Part shown: positions 38,945-45,775 of the stretch, piece after piece | How positions within the stretch are numbered: position 1 is the first letter of the stretch | How the letters are laid out: every line of letters begins with the position of its first letter | Source of the DNA: Chitinophaga pinensis | GTDB taxonomy: Bacteria; Bacteroidota; Bacteroidia; 2-12-FULL-35-15 | Assembly (NCBI GenBank): GCA_945865315.1 | Contig: CAMBDK010000009.1 | Coordinates: forward strand, 1-49,813 | DNA: 49,813 nucleotides | Direction: 5' to 3' | The notes under the pieces: model-generated | Told to the model about the DNA's origin: nothing | Databases searched by the model: none | Seen by the model: the letters and a program-made list of their open reading frames with translations, nothing else | Translations under genes and position numbers: made by a program

Positions 38945-39066
38945 AAATGGGTGTTATTTATACAAAAATAGTTCTTTACTCAGTGCATTACTAAAAAAAA
39001 AATATTACTTATGAGTACATAAATGTTAATTTTGTATTTCATTAAATTATTATTTTTTAGTAAAGC
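38945..39066. other. Short spacer left of repeat copy A
   Basis: AT-rich leader of the oxidoreductase gene, with no structure recognised. The rest of the 357-bp gap to the SPFH gene is filled by repeat copy A (39067-39270) and 31 further bases. Confidence 0.4.
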
Positions 39067-39270
39067 TTTCAAAATAATTTCGACAAAACAGATATATTAA
39101 TAAAAACAGATGATTTCATTTTTTTGCAAAAAAATATCCTTATGAAAACACGCGTGAGGAATGAATAAGCGCCCTGCCGGCTTTCAGGTGGGGAGGAATC
39201 CTTTGTTCTTTATTTTTTGTTTCTTCTGTATCAAGACAAAAGAAAAACACACAGTTTTTGAACCATTTAA
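39067..39270. repeat. Direct repeat copy A (left of the SPFH gene)
   Basis: A 204-bp segment matched in the same orientation by copy B at 40343-40545. The first ~105 bases (TTTC..AATTTCGACAAAACAG to GTGAGGAATGAA) differ at only about six positions and one 2-base indel. The centre is more diverged. The right part again matches, including a hairpin around CTGTATCAAGACA with arms TTCTTCTGT/ACAAAAGAA, and AACACACAG..TTTTGAACCATTTAA. It is non-coding on both strands. Confidence 0.8.
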
Positions 39271-39301
39271 TTTGCGGATTTATTTCGAAAACTTCTCCTA
39301 C

Positions 39302-40252
39302 TTATTTACCTGAACCTGCTGAATTTTTTTTGTGTTCCATAAGTGAAGTCATTGCCATCATTTCTTTCATGGTGCGCTGCATGCCATCGCTTGACCCATC
39401 TAAAAAAATAACATTTCCTTTTCCATATTCTGCGAAATTTTTAATAGCCTCCGTCCACATAGAAAATAAAATTACAGAGGTATCTAAATTTGCTTGCTCC
39501 ATTTCTTTTGCCGCTTCGCTCATCCCTTTAGCAACTTCTTGTCGGAAGAGTGCTACCCCTTGCCCACGAAGTTGTGCGGCTTCTTTTTCTGCAGTCGCAG
39601 CAATTCTAGTAGCATTTCCATCGGCCTCAGCCGATTTAGTTTTCGTTATAAGTAAAGCTTGCCCTTCGTTTTCTGCTGCCGCTTTTAAATTATTTGATGC
39701 AACTACTTTTGACATAGAAAGTATAATAGCCTCATCAAAAGTAATGTCGTTTAACTGCAAATCCTGAAGGTGGAACCCCCACTCTTCAAGTATCACGTCA
39801 ATTTGTTCTTTTACATGCTCTGTTATATCTTTTCTTAAACCTAATACTTCGGCTTGCTTTTTTATTGCTACAAAACCGCGGATAGACCCTTCAATAGTTC
39901 TTATAAGGGCTTGCATAAAACTCTTTTCATCAATAAATTTAAAGGCTACATTTTTAATTGTATTTTCCTCCTGATCCAGCACAGAATATAGCAACATTGC
40001 TTTAAAATAAACATTCGCTTGGTCAATTGTAATTGCTTGAAACTCTAATTCTACTGAACGATTTTGAATGGATATGCGTTTATAAACAATTTCAATAAAG
40101 GGAATTTTCATGTTTAACCCAGGCCCCAATATTCTACGGTATTTCCCAAAAACAGTAATAACCCCTATGGTACCTTGCTGCACTGTTACAAAAGAAAGGA
40201 AAATTAATAAGAGCCCTATAGCAGTTAAAATTAATTGAATTTGATTTGGCAT
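39302..40252 (-). CDS. SPFH/band 7 (stomatin-like) membrane protein
   Basis: A 316-residue protein with one N-terminal membrane helix (about 5-22), then a band-7/SPFH domain (about 24-200: VQQGTIGVITVFGKYRRILGPGLNMKIPF at its start), then an alanine/glutamate-rich coiled coil (about 190-260) and a short C-terminal tail. Such proteins oligomerise into cage-like membrane microdomain scaffolds and often partner proteases. No NfeD or protease gene is adjacent. The gene is bracketed by ~200-bp direct repeats, 31 and 90 bases from its ends. Confidence 0.9.
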   Translation of the reverse strand: MPNQIQLILTAIGLLLIFLSFVTVQQGTIGVITVFGKYRRILGPGLNMKIPFIEIVYKRISIQNRSVELEFQAITIDQANVYFKAMLLYSVLDQEENTIKNVAFKFIDEKSFMQALIRTIEGSIRGFVAIKKQAEVLGLRKDITEHVKEQIDVILEEWGFHLQDLQLNDITFDEAIILSMSKVVASNNLKAAAENEGQALLITKTKSAEADGNATRIAATAEKEAAQLRGQGVALFRQEVAKGMSEAAKEMEQANLDTSVILFSMWTEAIKNFAEYGKGNVIFLDGSSDGMQRTMKEMMAMTSLMEHKKNSAGSGK

Positions 40253-40342
40253 GGTTATAAATTTTTGAATGATTTTGTGTAAATTTATAAATTAATTACA
40301 ATGGTATGGAAAAATATTATTATTAATCTGACAAAGTGAAGT

Positions 40343-40545
40343 TTTCGAAACAATTTCGACAAAACAGATATATTAATAAAAACAGCTGATTTCATTTTTT
40401 TTTGCAAAAAAATATCCTTATAAAAACGGGCGTGAGGAATGAACAAACGCGATGCAGTTTTGCAGGTGGGGGGGATCGTTTGTTATTGATTTTTTGTTGC
40501 TTTTGTATCATGACAAAAGAAAACACACAGTTTTGAACCATTTAA
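40343..40545. repeat. Direct repeat copy B (right of the SPFH gene)
   Basis: The 203-bp partner of copy A, same orientation. It holds the perfect hairpin CTTTTGT-ATCATG-ACAAAAG (about 40499-40518), a seven-G run near 40467, and ends TTTTGAACCATTTAA. Compared with A, the hairpin arms have changed but still pair, which hints that the structure itself is conserved. Confidence 0.8.
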
Positions 40546-40833
40546 CGGATCTTCCATTCAAATTTGATTGTGTTTTTGGCCGTATCGTTTTGTGAGCAAT
40601 AAGTTTGGTGATTTTGAGTTTGTGAAAAAAATACCTGCATTCTTATTGTCAATTTTTTCAAGTGTTTCCGGAAAATAAGATTTTAGCAATGGTAAATATT
40701 CTTTTCTATAAATGCAAAAAATAATATTTGTGTATGCGACTAAAAACGATTAAAAAAACCTTTAACTTACTGATAATATTGGCATTTATCGTTTTTCACA
40801 AAAAACATTGGAGGGAAGATCCGTTTTAAATGG
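40538..40833. repeat. Long-range inverted repeat bounding a 296-bp non-coding segment
   Basis: CCATTTAACGGATCTTCC (40538-40555) is matched in inverse by GGAAGATCCGTTTTAAATGG (40814-40833), with only a two-base insertion. The 258 bases between show no convincing gene. The left arm overlaps the end of repeat copy B. The layout resembles the ends of a small mobile or foldback element. Confidence 0.5.
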
Positions 40834-40844
40834 CTGAAGTAAAA

Positions 40845-40882
40845 AAAATAGAGATTATTAAAATTTTAACAATCTCTATTTT
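40845..40882 (-). terminator. Terminator of the glutamate dehydrogenase gene
   Basis: AAAATAGAGATT (40845-40856) pairs with AATCTCTATTTT (40871-40882); the loop itself is almost self-complementary. A run of A on the plus strand (40841-40848) gives the U-tract on the minus-strand RNA. It lies 18 bases past the dehydrogenase stop codon. Confidence 0.8.
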
Positions 40883-40900: not shown

Positions 40901-43900
40901 CTATAAACGCGCAACAGCTTTGTGCAGTTTTTCTGCCATCACCACTAATGAAGAAATAGGAACAGGTTCTAATGGGTTGGCGTGTAAACGAGATATTTCT
41001 GCTCCCATAGCATTTAGAGCTGGTTCACGCTTCAGTGTTTCATCAACCCCTATTTTCATTGCCATTTCTGTTAGCAATAAATTAGTTCTTCGCAAAGAGG
41101 TAAACAGACTTTTTAATGCTTGCGCTTCCCATTTATCTAGGGACGACTGAACTGATATTTTTGCGAGTATTTCTTGCATACCAGTTGCTTGTCCGCAAAG
41201 CAAATATGTTTTAATGGTATCCTCTATTGGCTTAGCAAGTTTTTCGGCAACAAAAGCTATTGGAAATACTTTGGGCCAGTGAACAGAAAGGGCTATTTCT
41301 TTAGCTAAATCAACTGTAAAGCCCTGCTCTTCAATTCTTTTTATATCCTCATTTAACTTTACTAAATTAGCATTGGATTTATCAACAGTAAAGAATTTAT
41401 ACATACCATCAAATACTTTTCTATATTCGGCTGCTCTCACTTTAAAGTTTTGCCCATTTCCAATTTTCTCATACAATATTTCTCCGGGGAAAAAATGTAG
41501 TATCCAACTAGCCGAAACTTTAATTTTATACTCTAGGGTAACTATATTTTTAAGCCTTGCTTCTAATGGAACTTGATCGCAAGCCATTATGCGTTGTTTT
41601 AATTCAAGGGCATTCATCCACTGTTCGGCAGCGGTATAAGCAAAAGCAACATCCACTGCGCTACGCTCCGAGTCGGTCATTAAATCTGTAAAAAGACTTG
41701 CTCCTGCATCATTAATAATATGGCCAACCCATACTGTAGCAAAAAGTTCTTTTAATAATAGGTGAGAATCCATTTCTTCACGGAAATTTCCATAAATTTG
41801 TTTAGGGAAATAGTTTTTGAGAAACTCCTCTTTTAAAGGAAAACGAGATACATCCAGCGACAACAATTTAGACTTTAAATACATTTTAGTAAAAGCCATC
41901 AGTTTACTCAACTCTGGTCGAGTAAAGCCTTTTTTTAATCCCCTCTTATGAATTTGCGCTAAGGTAGGAAGGTCTTCTCTTTCGGCTACCATTATGCCTT
42001 CTTCGGCTAAAAAGTCTGAACTCCATAAAAAAAGATAAGGATCCTTTTTACTTCTTATTTCATCCAACGAGAGGCAAAGAGCGTGTCTGTAATTATCTTC
42101 CAGGATATTATCTAAAACTTCTGATGTTGCTTTTTTCAGCACCTTATTGCGCTCATCGGTTATCATTTTACCCGAAGTTATGATAGGCCCAAAAAGAATT
42201 TTTAAATTTACTTCGCGATCAGAACAATCAACGCCTCCGGAATTATCAATAGCGTCCGTATCAATTAAGCCGCCTTTTAATGCAAATTCAATGCGCCCTT
42301 TTTGTGTTACACCTAAATTTCCTCCTTCGCATACTACCTTTGCAAGCACATCTATGGCATCCACCCGCACCGAATCGTTCGTTTTGTCATTTACTTCGCG
42401 ATGATCTTCTTCGGATGACTTAATGTATGTTCCAAGCCCCCCATTATATAATAAATCAACGTTATGCTTTAAAATCATTTTAATAAGCTCCTCGGTAGCT
42501 AATTGTGTTTCGTTGGTTCCCAAAAGTATTTGAATTTCCGGTGTTAAAACAACGGCTTTCTCTGCTCTGGAAAAAACACCGCCGCCTTTTGAAATCTTTT
42601 CAGGATTATAATCTGTCCAGCTGGAACGAGGAAGGCTAAACATTCGTTGCCTTTCATTAAATGAAGCTTCACAATCTGGATTTGGATCTAAAAAAATATG
42701 GGCGTGGTTGAAGGCTGCTACTAGTTTTAGGGTTTTCGATCGTAACATCCCGTTACCGAAAACGTCGCCCGACATATCCCCAATACCTACCACAGTAATA
42801 TTATCCTTTTCTGGGTTAATATTAATTTTCCCAAATTGGTGCTTAGCGCATACCCACGCACCTTTTGCAGTTATCCCTTCCACTTTATGGTCGTACCCAA
42901 CAGAGCCTCCCGAAGCAAAAGCGTCACCAAGCCAAAAGCCATATTCAGCTGAAAGCCCATTAGCTGTATCAGAAAGGTGAGCGGTACCCTTGTCGGCAGC
43001 AACTACAAGGTATGGATCAAAAACATCATGGCAAACTACCCCCGGCGGTCTAATTTTTTTACCTGCAAGTTGGTTGTCTGTTAAATCAAGCAAGCCGCGA
43101 ATTAAAATTTTATACATTTCATCCCCATAAGCCTTTCTATCTTGACCCTTTTTAGGAGTTCCACGCACTACAAATCCCCCTTTAGCTCCTGTTGGTATAA
43201 TTAATACATTTTTCGAATTTTGAGCACGCATAAGTCCAAATATCTCTGTTCGATAATCATCCAATCGATCGCTCCAACGAATTCCTCCTCTTGCAACCCT
43301 TCCAGATCTTAGGTGACAACCTTCCATTTCGGCATGATAAACAAAAATTTCAAATAAAGGTCTTGGTTCAGGGCAGTGCTCTAGTTTTGTACAATCAAAT
43401 TTAAATGAAAGGTAATGAAATGGACGATCGCTGCGATATGCGTTTGTTCTAATTGTCGATTCAATTAAATTAAACAATATTTGAAAAACCCTATCTTCCG
43501 TTGCATCTTGAATTTTCTCCATTCCCTTGAGGAAGGCTTTTCTCGTTTCGGACACCTTTAGGTTTCTAACACCTCCTTTTTTATCTTCCAACTCACTACC
43601 ATCAATAGCCGCTTCAATTTGAGGGTCGAATTTATTATGAAAATGAGCCACAAGTGTTTTTGTAAGTTCTGCATGTCGAAAAAGTACCCGATCAACAATG
43701 CTGGAATCAAAGAATGGTCCAATTTGTATAGAATATCGCATATAAGAACGAAGAACATCTACATCTTCCCATGCAAGACCCGGACGAAGCATAAGCCGGT
43801 TCATAGAATCGGAAGGCACTTTGCCGCCAAATATTGCCTCTAAGCCATTTATTAATTCTCTTTTATTGCTTACATAATTTTGTTCCCCTGAGGAAGGATC

Positions 43901-45775
43901 TACTAACAACCGAAATGTATCAATAAAAAGTACAGTTTGGTTTGAAAGCGTTATTTGTGTGGGCAAACCGTTCAACACCTTAAAGCCTATGTTGTGAAGT
44001 ATAGGAAGGATTTCAGAAAGCAACAAGCCCCCAGATTCTGTGCGGTAAATACTTAATTTTGTTTCATTGGCTGCATTTTTTCCTGTACCAGGCAAAATAT
44101 CAAATTGTATGCTAGCATTTTTCTGAAGTTCCTCTAAATGAAGGATATCCTCTATAATTTCATCGAGCGAAACCAGGTCTTTATAGGAAGATGGAAAAGC
44201 CTCCACATATTTTGCATAAAGTTTTGCCGGCAATTCTATTTTGCTACTCATTAATTTTGTTCTGAAACGAACATGCCAAGGGGTACATAAATCTGAAACA
44301 GAATTTTCTAATACGGCAATTTGTGCCTTTTCCAGATTTGAACACCCCGAAAAATAAATGGCAAGCGGAATAATATTTCCTTTAACGGCTTCTATCTCCA
44401 CCTGAATGTTTGAAGTACCCAATTCACTAATTAGTATAGATTTAATACTATCTAAAAGGTCTTCGGAATAGGCTTCATGCGGAATAGCGATAAGGGCGTA
44501 TGCTGTTTTTCTTTCGGAGTTTACATCAATGTGAACCAAAGTTTCGTTCCGGGAGTCTTGCTCCAAGCGGTTATCAATTAAACGCCTTAGTTGATAATCG
44601 TCACATTCGAAAAGGTATTCAATCATTATCTTATTAAATACTTTTACTCGTGCATTATAAGAGGATGACTGCGGCCTTACCTCATCTTGGTCAATGATTT
44701 TTTGAAGACGAGTCTTTAAATATGGTAAATTGGAACGCTGCAGCGTATGCGATTTTATAGTAAACATTCCCAAAAGAACAGTTACGCCTTCCTTTTCCCC
44801 ATTTTTATCAAACTCTTTTAACATAATCTTTCCCATAAACCCTTCGCGTTTCATTGGCGCCTTTATTTGGGATAAGGAGAGCGAGAAAACAGCCTCCTTG
44901 CCTGATTCGTTCTCGTAGAATTTAGAAGCTTGATTTATCAAAGATTCATTTTCATTAGCGTCTTCGAAGCCTAATGATTTAACAACACCCCTATTCAAGA
45001 TGTTTTTTTTGCCTTCTTTTGCAAAACTTAACATAGAAACAAAAATGAAATTATTATCCAGCAGCCAATGAAGTAATTCATTTGCTTCAATAAGCTCCAA
45101 AGGTTTGGGCCCATTTAAAATATTAGCACCTGAAAGGGAATTGTAAGAATTAATATTATTTGTAATAACCTTACGTATTTTGTGGTAATCTCTTACAGTT
45201 GCGGCAGCAATATTTAATCTAAAATGTATTTTGTTTTGACATGCTTCTCTGTGTTGCTCATTTTGAAAACCTGTTAACAAATAACGAGTTAATGACTCCA
45301 TGTGATGGTTATCATCTTCTTTCTTGCTTATGGAAACAATATTTCCTGCCTCATCTCTTCGAATAGGGAACGAAAAATGCACCGAACCTTCTTCTTTTAA
45401 ACCCAGCTCAGCAAAGCAAAGTTTAAGGGTGTCTATGATAAAACGCTGATCGGCCATACAGGTTTCTAAAGCAAATACCCCTTCATCAAGTCCGTCTTGA
45501 ATATTTTTAGCATCGTGTATTTTCACCTTTATTTCTCCCGCCTTACGCGTGGAAGTAAATTTAGAAAATTCGGCAACAGTATCGAGCTCCGTAATTTCAA
45601 CAATCCTTCTTAAATAACGATCGTTTGCCCTGCGAAAAAAAAACTGAACGAACTCTTCTAAGTCCTCTTTTCGGAGCCTACTTGTTTTTGTATGAACCGG
45701 CGTCAATTTCGACAGCCACTTATCTAATTTAGCAGGCTTTGCGTCAATGCTTGTCTTTAATTTTTCTGTTTCCAT
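40901..45775 (-). CDS. Large NAD-dependent glutamate dehydrogenase
   Basis: A 1624-residue NAD-specific glutamate dehydrogenase of the large (~180 kDa) class, which converts glutamate to 2-oxoglutarate and ammonium for catabolism. The first ~700 residues are the regulatory region with ACT-like segments. The catalytic core starts near 825 with RVARGGIRWSDRLDDYRTEI and the lysine-bearing IPTGAKGGFVVRG. The NAD-binding motif VVGIGDMSGDVFGNGML is near 995, and a C-terminal helical domain follows. The length is normal for the class. This class was described in Streptomyces and Proteobacteria and is less usual in Bacteroidota. It is monocistronic, with a 733-bp upstream gap and its own terminator. 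Confidence 0.95.
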   Translation of the reverse strand: METEKLKTSIDAKPAKLDKWLSKLTPVHTKTSRLRKEDLEEFVQFFFRRANDRYLRRIVEITELDTVAEFSKFTSTRKAGEIKVKIHDAKNIQDGLDEGVFALETCMADQRFIIDTLKLCFAELGLKEEGSVHFSFPIRRDEAGNIVSISKKEDDNHHMESLTRYLLTGFQNEQHREACQNKIHFRLNIAAATVRDYHKIRKVITNNINSYNSLSGANILNGPKPLELIEANELLHWLLDNNFIFVSMLSFAKEGKKNILNRGVVKSLGFEDANENESLINQASKFYENESGKEAVFSLSLSQIKAPMKREGFMGKIMLKEFDKNGEKEGVTVLLGMFTIKSHTLQRSNLPYLKTRLQKIIDQDEVRPQSSSYNARVKVFNKIMIEYLFECDDYQLRRLIDNRLEQDSRNETLVHIDVNSERKTAYALIAIPHEAYSEDLLDSIKSILISELGTSNIQVEIEAVKGNIIPLAIYFSGCSNLEKAQIAVLENSVSDLCTPWHVRFRTKLMSSKIELPAKLYAKYVEAFPSSYKDLVSLDEIIEDILHLEELQKNASIQFDILPGTGKNAANETKLSIYRTESGGLLLSEILPILHNIGFKVLNGLPTQITLSNQTVLFIDTFRLLVDPSSGEQNYVSNKRELINGLEAIFGGKVPSDSMNRLMLRPGLAWEDVDVLRSYMRYSIQIGPFFDSSIVDRVLFRHAELTKTLVAHFHNKFDPQIEAAIDGSELEDKKGGVRNLKVSETRKAFLKGMEKIQDATEDRVFQILFNLIESTIRTNAYRSDRPFHYLSFKFDCTKLEHCPEPRPLFEIFVYHAEMEGCHLRSGRVARGGIRWSDRLDDYRTEIFGLMRAQNSKNVLIIPTGAKGGFVVRGTPKKGQDRKAYGDEMYKILIRGLLDLTDNQLAGKKIRPPGVVCHDVFDPYLVVAADKGTAHLSDTANGLSAEYGFWLGDAFASGGSVGYDHKVEGITAKGAWVCAKHQFGKININPEKDNITVVGIGDMSGDVFGNGMLRSKTLKLVAAFNHAHIFLDPNPDCEASFNERQRMFSLPRSSWTDYNPEKISKGGGVFSRAEKAVVLTPEIQILLGTNETQLATEELIKMILKHNVDLLYNGGLGTYIKSSEEDHREVNDKTNDSVRVDAIDVLAKVVCEGGNLGVTQKGRIEFALKGGLIDTDAIDNSGGVDCSDREVNLKILFGPIITSGKMITDERNKVLKKATSEVLDNILEDNYRHALCLSLDEIRSKKDPYLFLWSSDFLAEEGIMVAEREDLPTLAQIHKRGLKKGFTRPELSKLMAFTKMYLKSKLLSLDVSRFPLKEEFLKNYFPKQIYGNFREEMDSHLLLKELFATVWVGHIINDAGASLFTDLMTDSERSAVDVAFAYTAAEQWMNALELKQRIMACDQVPLEARLKNIVTLEYKIKVSASWILHFFPGEILYEKIGNGQNFKVRAAEYRKVFDGMYKFFTVDKSNANLVKLNEDIKRIEEQGFTVDLAKEIALSVHWPKVFPIAFVAEKLAKPIEDTIKTYLLCGQATGMQEILAKISVQSSLDKWEAQALKSLFTSLRRTNLLLTEMAMKIGVDETLKREPALNAMGAEISRLHANPLEPVPISSLVVMAEKLHKAVARL

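Follow-up and report, generated by a model that had tools for sequence, protein, structure and literature searches.

Among the described systems closest to the repeats considered here, the IS1031 group of the IS5 family makes a 3-bp target duplication of the TNA type. BrickBuilt, a MITE of Porphyromonas gingivalis, is described as having 19 copies in strain ATCC 33277 and a 23-nt minisatellite as its cargo (PMC4596501), and in Bacteroidetes the RAYT genes of subclass 2.6 are described as flanked by atypical structures (PMC6006769). In this study we analysed a window of 49,813 nucleotides (the whole stretch of DNA under study) in which a pair of non-coding repeats, both in one orientation, stands on the two sides of an SPFH gene. 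These repeats are probably separately inserted copies of a non-autonomous transposon (MITE) of 237 bp, which encloses a structured repeat older than itself.

The two copies in the window

A sequence-only reading of the window had described same-orientation, non-coding repeats of ~204 bp around the SPFH gene, nearly identical in their outer parts and diverged in the centre. Alignment of copies A and B (86.9% identity over 213 columns, E 1e-69) agrees with this arrangement, and the centre is indeed the region of highest divergence. The dimensions had to be revised: the unit is 237-238 bp long, the gap between copy A and the SPFH stop codon is 4 bp instead of 31, and copy B, the right end of which is shortened by ~25 bp, is separated from the start codon of the gene by 83 bp instead of 90. 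The copies are 1.28 kb apart (Table 1). Neither has a perfect target duplication, because the triplets flanking copy A are identical in two of three letters and copy B is without its right end.

A hairpin near the right end had also been thought to keep its pairing through covarying changes between the copies. Its arms are TTTCTTCTGT/ACAAAAGAAA in copy A and TTGCTTTTGT/ACAAAAGAAA in copy B, with 9 of 10 pairs formed in either, and all of the changes between them are one-sided. A further hairpin, H0, has the arms GAATAAGCG/CCTTTGTTC in copy A, where some of the pairs are G-T, and GAACAAACG/CGTTTGTTA in copy B.

Two other features lie beyond copy B. Imperfect inverted arms of 29 nt, 79% complementary and perfect in their outer parts (AACGGATCTTCC/GGAAGATCCGTT), bound positions 40544-40825 and begin precisely at the truncation point of copy B; the element that they enclose is present in a single copy in the source genome and has no long match in 35 congeners. 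At 40845-40882 there is a perfect-looking, loopless AT-rich palindrome (19-nt arms, 95% complementary). It lies just downstream of the large gene for NAD-glutamate dehydrogenase, at 40901-45775 on the minus strand, and is probably the terminator of that gene.

Table 1. Positions in the window of the two MITE copies, their parts and the gene between them
Feature	Position	Strand	Basis
MITE copy A, complete, 238 bp	39060..39297	+	95% identity to family consensus, consensus 4-239
Copy A target triplet TTA, left	39057..39059	.	Family rule of 3-bp duplication
Copy A target triplet CTA, right	39298..39300	.	Read from sequence
Copy A inverted end, left	39060..39079	+	Consensus ends
Copy A inverted end, right	39278..39297	+	Consensus ends
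Copy A hairpin H0	39163..39208	+	Arms 39163-39171 and 39200-39208; 8/9 pairs
Copy A phylum-wide core, decayed	39208..39244	+	Helix 1 5/6 pairs, helix 2 9/10
MITE copy B, without right end	40336..40545	+	91% identity to consensus, consensus 3-214
Copy B hairpin H0	40441..40485	+	Arms 40441-40449 and 40477-40485; 8/9 pairs
Copy B phylum-wide core, decayed	40485..40521	+	Helix 1 4/6 pairs, helix 2 9/10
SPFH/Band_7 gene, 316 aa, outside the element	39302..40252	-	Pfam Band_7, E 9.6e-30

A MITE family in the source genome

The source genome is a draft of 3,268,232 bases in 195 contigs. A 31-base pattern from the left part of the repeat matched it 162 times and a 34-base pattern from the right part 150 times (up to three mismatches, reversed controls 0 for both), and these counts support the dispersed repeat family that had been suspected from the window; BLAST placed the repeat in at least 43 places, with the best 40 of 337 candidates scored. 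The window together with 84 further stretches (85 sources, 389 kb in all) yielded 119 copies, of which 94 are full length, and a consensus of 237 bp (GTAAAGCTTTCAAAATAATT...ATTTATTTCGAAAACTTCAC) with imperfect terminal inverted repeats of ~20 bp that begin GTRAAGYTTTC. The 3-bp flanks are identical in 70 of the 96 copies with readable ends, against a mean of 27.4 for shuffled partners. At 4 bp agreement falls to 1 of 96, which sets the length of the target duplication at precisely 3 bp. Its triplets are of the TWA type (TAA 34, TTA 26, CTA 4, others 6; n=70), with C favoured before and G after, so that the preferred site is CTWAG. Thirteen pairs of copies are adjacent at 20 bp or less, and some copies stand in tandem, head to tail, with the TWA in common. 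With gene calls based simply on the longest ORF, none of the 106 insertion events taken from the 85 sources, out of ~160 copies, fell within an ORF. Inverted ends, a duplication of fixed length, small size, lack of coding sequence and high copy number are all as in a MITE. Folding of the full consensus gave a z-score of -2.63, and that for single copies was not significant.

Many contigs of the draft terminate at or inside a MITE copy (for example L029, L034, L038, L045, L047 and L052), and near-identical flanks at some contig ends (such as L044/L049, L038/L046 and L017/L050) mean that the counts of copies and events are perhaps a few too high. As contigs end in MITE copies, and some of these ends have flanks in common, it is probable that the repeat has broken the assembly.

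The element would owe its movement to a cut-and-paste transposase (DDE-type) supplied in trans. A transposase of the IS4/IS5 type sharing the MITE ends was looked for as a candidate and not found: among 15 PF01609 loci in G000, G013, G018 and G022 none was bracketed by these ends, and a guessed pattern for the ends matched 0 times. An empty insertion site was seen for none of the MITE copies. The missing transposase and empty site, together with the imperfect duplications in the window, are points against the MITE model.

The interior and its shell

Searches among relatives gave matches to the repeat in 36 of 59 genomes, the source genome included. In the other members of the genus whose matches were aligned, congener G013 excepted, these cover the interior alone (about positions 60-206) and not the ends. 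On sequence comparison the interior appears to predate the MITE. It consists of hairpin H0 (GAACAAACG...CGTTTGTTC) followed by a core, CTTGAT-TTTTTG-TTTCTTTTGT-ATCAAG-ACAAAAGAAA.

In G013 there is a MITE of ~155-200 bp with the same ends and another interior, TTTCGACAAGCTCAATATGAC...GAGCTTGTCGAAGAC (L097, L099, L385-L399). This second interior is itself a dispersed repeat throughout the genus: 24 of 36 genomes match the G013-type query, most of them at positions ~36-103 only, and matches containing the ends occur in G013, G022, G018 and the source genome. One type of shell thus holds two different structured repeats, since the G013 element combines the same ends with a different interior, and a MITE of this kind in a congener provides a route to studying how shells take up structured repeats.

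The core across Bacteroidota

The core occupies ~37 nt of the MITE interior, has the form CTTGAx-loop-TTCTTTTGy-xTCAAG-rCAAAAGAA and recurs outside the MITE across Bacteroidota. A 37-base core pattern had matches in 30 of 395 genomes of the phylum; with the pairing positions left free and up to two mismatches, matches were present in 60 of the 395 genomes and 30 of 171 genera, and every listed reversed control gave 0. A scan of named genomes returned at least 117 stretches, and among the 80 loci listed nearly all belong to Bacteroidota or neighbouring FCB groups. The hosts among the matches listed include Chryseobacterium, Elizabethkingia, Flavobacterium, Pedobacter and Mucilaginibacter, as well as Parabacteroides, Prevotella, Algoriphagus and Balneola, with single exceptions such as Propionigenium and one Patescibacteria bin. 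In viral contigs just 22 stretches match the core. The phylum that bears it spans gut, soil and clinical genera.

In this core CTTGAx pairs with xTCAAG (helix 1) and TTCTTTTGy with rCAAAAGAA (helix 2). The patterns used in the copy and covariation searches fix part of each helix, and the letters so fixed, in 5 of 6 pairs of helix 1 and 5 of 10 pairs of helix 2, are unable to vary. The free position of helix 1 is paired in 87 of 90 instances (TA 49, AT 23, CG 15), the two free positions of helix 2 in 90 of 90 each, and the positions further out in 90, 87 and 84 of 90; mismatched control pairings of the same instances showed no agreement. The covariation alignment (A1) was built from 70 of these 90 instances, with one distinct sequence for each locus. 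In these 70 sequences 98.9% of cells are paired against 83.5% after shuffling, 154 cells are changed on both sides against 42.3, and covariation scores 0.363 against 0.073, or at most 0.054 when the columns are slid by 1-3. Six pairs have double changes, one in helix 1 and five in helix 2. Helix 1 shows another double change, CTTGGC...GCCAAG, five times in genome G166 when mismatches are allowed (contig C6 540720-552364 and C7 901902), and several covarying types can occur within one genome (L172, L214). Covariation, which the earlier reading had placed between the two window copies, is absent there and present in the core of the repeat across the phylum.

The six bases in the loop of helix 2 are precisely the downstream strand of helix 1. 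This is the topology of an H-type pseudoknot, and its two interlocked helices are kept by compensatory change. In kissing complexes, TAR-TAR* among them, every base of a six-base loop can be paired, and for this reason both helices of the core may coexist; alternation between them is also possible.

Some loci (L079, L080, L081, L082, L083 and L088) contain head-to-tail arrays with units of ~290-390 bp and one core per unit, and in L083 the units also contain a repeat of the TGTCATCCTGAACACGAAGCAGTCGAAGGATC type. Same-strand clusters prompted us to consider gene cassettes with attC-like sites. This idea was rejected: two ORF-listed loci proved to be intergenic regions of an ordinary chromosomal kind, and in others there are recurring tandem units of ~300-390 bp.

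Conservation and decay of pairing

Among 98 copies in the source genome the pairs that had changed were mostly broken, with pairing kept in 7 of 55 changed pairs of helix 1, 9 of 50 of helix 2 and 25 of 100 of H0. The copies of this genome, those in the window among them, decay without compensation. Because changes within the genome mostly break pairs, it is in the lineages that spread, and not in each resident copy, that pairing is preserved. Of the earlier suggestion of a pair of structured RNAs, the structure is borne out by the sequence of the interior, but the copies in the window have decayed.

Since pairing is held between lineages and decays freely among the copies of one genome, we tentatively read the core as a mobility signal and not as an RNA that the host requires at every site, and give this a little less than an even chance. 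The core could be a folded cis recognition signal for propagation that is read as single-stranded DNA or RNA; strong covariation without upkeep of single copies points to an enzyme that recognises the folded strand. We infer that the core is also mobile outside the MITE. In the lineage of the source genome a repeat bearing this signal would have been enclosed by the MITE shell and then amplified by it. More speculatively, the core could represent an undescribed, Bacteroidota-wide family of mobile nucleic-acid signals, in which the six-base loop of a hairpin pairs with the strand just upstream and an enzyme propagates the repeat through its folded form. Under this broader and rather doubtful proposal, structured repeats would be taken up repeatedly as cargo by unrelated transposon shells, the shell here being strongly oriented with local transcription.

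Orientation and transcription

Orientation was scored in stretches L017-L056, L301-L304 and L314-L353 of the source genome and in the window at 39060-40545. After 19 events at stretch edges had been dropped from the 106, 87 could be classified. Between co-directional genes the MITE lies in the sense direction 54 times and antisense 5 times (p 2e-11), both window copies being among the five exceptions; the flanking genes are convergent at another 15 events and divergent at 13. Within a contig the copies mostly lie on one strand (24 pairs the same, 4 different), which suggested an orientation linked to replication, but local gene direction explains the pattern better. Where the local gene pair is opposed to the rest of its stretch the MITE follows the pair 16 to 1, and it ignores the majority strand between convergent (7:8) and divergent (6:7) genes; the bias thus tracks local transcription. 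In the G013 MITE the ratio at co-directional sites is 1:4, with five sites only and an arbitrary strand label, so that a Fisher value computed for it is meaningless.

A bias of 54:5 is not predicted by a MITE carrying a mobility signal and counts against that combination. It is one of the points in favour of a transcribed host element, in which H0 and a U-rich stretch would terminate transcription of the upstream gene and the core would serve to protect the end of the RNA or to regulate it. On the sense strand of the consensus H0 does resemble a terminator (-11.2 kcal/mol) and is followed by TTGATTTTTTG. At the free positions of 90 unbiased cores G-T pairs outnumber A-C mismatches 13 to 4 by our count, a hint that the sense strand is the one that folds; a second tally (137 to 28) was left unused, since the scan behind it accepts G-T as paired and is hence biased. 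However, the core has no orientation bias in other genomes (27:13, 10:20, 6:6), 13 of the 87 events lie between divergent genes, and a site scan of one copy returned no terminator. The uncompensated decay of resident copies and the antisense position of those in the window also speak against such an element, which we regard as unlikely. The sense bias is better treated as a separate puzzle that is open to testing.

Y1 transposases as possible readers

If the core is a mobility signal, RAYT enzymes are the natural candidate readers, because of the atypical structures described beside the subclass 2.6 genes of Bacteroidetes (PMC6006769). The repeat would then be of the REP type, with a Y1/RAYT transposase to mobilise it like those of REPtrons. 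It is structured, intergenic and of high copy number, as this would require, and Y1 genes are present in all 24 of 24 core-bearing genomes. Against this, none of 47 distinct Y1 loci, part of those listed, has a convincing core beside it, and two of three inspected RAYT loci are flanked by an unrelated GCTGGYGCGAGC repeat. A GTAG-type foot at the hairpin is absent from the consensus and from the 90 aligned cores. As far as it was tested, then, Y1/RAYT fails as the mobiliser, and we consider this origin quite improbable. The inverted GCTGGYGCGAGC repeats, which are unrelated to the core, surround Bacteroidota Y1/RAYT genes at L294 1524-2200 and L300 1453-2149.

The SPFH gene between the copies

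The SPFH gene is present in one copy in 31 of 36 genomes of the genus, at 79% identity or more. The MITE was found at none of 29 other SPFH loci examined; one of the SPFH loci, L142, has a 31-nt core-like match ~1.3 kb off. A common adjoining gene is present at 14 of the 29 loci and missing here, and the neighbours of the gene in the window are shared with none of the 29. As it is single-copy in 31 of 36 genomes and its neighbours differ, SPFH is an old gene of the genus with surroundings that change often. By our arithmetic, chance alone would place about ten pairs of neighbours less than 1.3 kb apart when ~160 copies are spread over 3.27 Mb, so that a gene between two copies is unremarkable, and SPFH would be bracketed by them through chance. 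The earlier proposal that the repeat family had captured the gene is not supported, given this expectation, the single-copy status of the gene and the absence of the MITE from the 29 loci, although a neighbourhood unlike all of the others leaves room in which relocation or capture may have occurred. That the pair could act as a recombination substrate, as had also been proposed, is true of direct repeats generally.

In a composite transposon the two MITE copies would carry SPFH as their cargo. Direct copies do flank the gene on both sides, in surroundings that differ from the 29 others. However, copy B lacks the outer right end, so that intact outer ends with a joint duplication are not found, close pairs are expected at this MITE density, SPFH is a widespread single-copy gene of the genus, and its neighbours vary in any case, with the common neighbour at just 14 of 29 loci; a composite transposon is very improbable. 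Local duplication of an ordinary non-coding segment, to which the 1.28-kb spacing and single orientation of the pair might point, is already refuted by ~160 dispersed copies with target-site duplications and can be dismissed. Two separate MITE insertions remain the preferred explanation of the pair.

Comparison with known systems

At gathering score neither the window nor any of 12 core-bearing loci had a match in Rfam 15, and below threshold there were weak, chance-like matches only. A description of the core or of the MITE ends was not found in the open-access literature searched, most subscription papers lying outside it. The core is apparently undescribed, and the MITE shell itself is ordinary. 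Its 3-bp duplication of the TNA type (TAA 34, TTA 26 and CTA 4 of 70) resembles that of the IS1031 group.

REP/REPIN repeats and their RAYTs, as described in PMC6006769 and PMC3733652, are comparable in being multi-copy, intergenic, structured repeats for which the fold matters. The core differs from them in having no GTAG/CGTC foot, in forming a second helix through its loop and in not standing beside Y1 genes. The IS982-derived MITE of Cardinium has, on its description in PMC9769881, likewise spread inside one lineage of Bacteroidota; its parent is known to be of the IS982 family, whereas the parent of the present MITE was not found. BrickBuilt is similar in belonging to Bacteroidota, in its small inverted ends, in being always intergenic and in having a repeat inside (PMC4596501). 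On that same description it is set apart by its copy number and cargo: 19 copies with a minisatellite in BrickBuilt, as opposed to ~160 copies with a two-helix core in the family analysed here.
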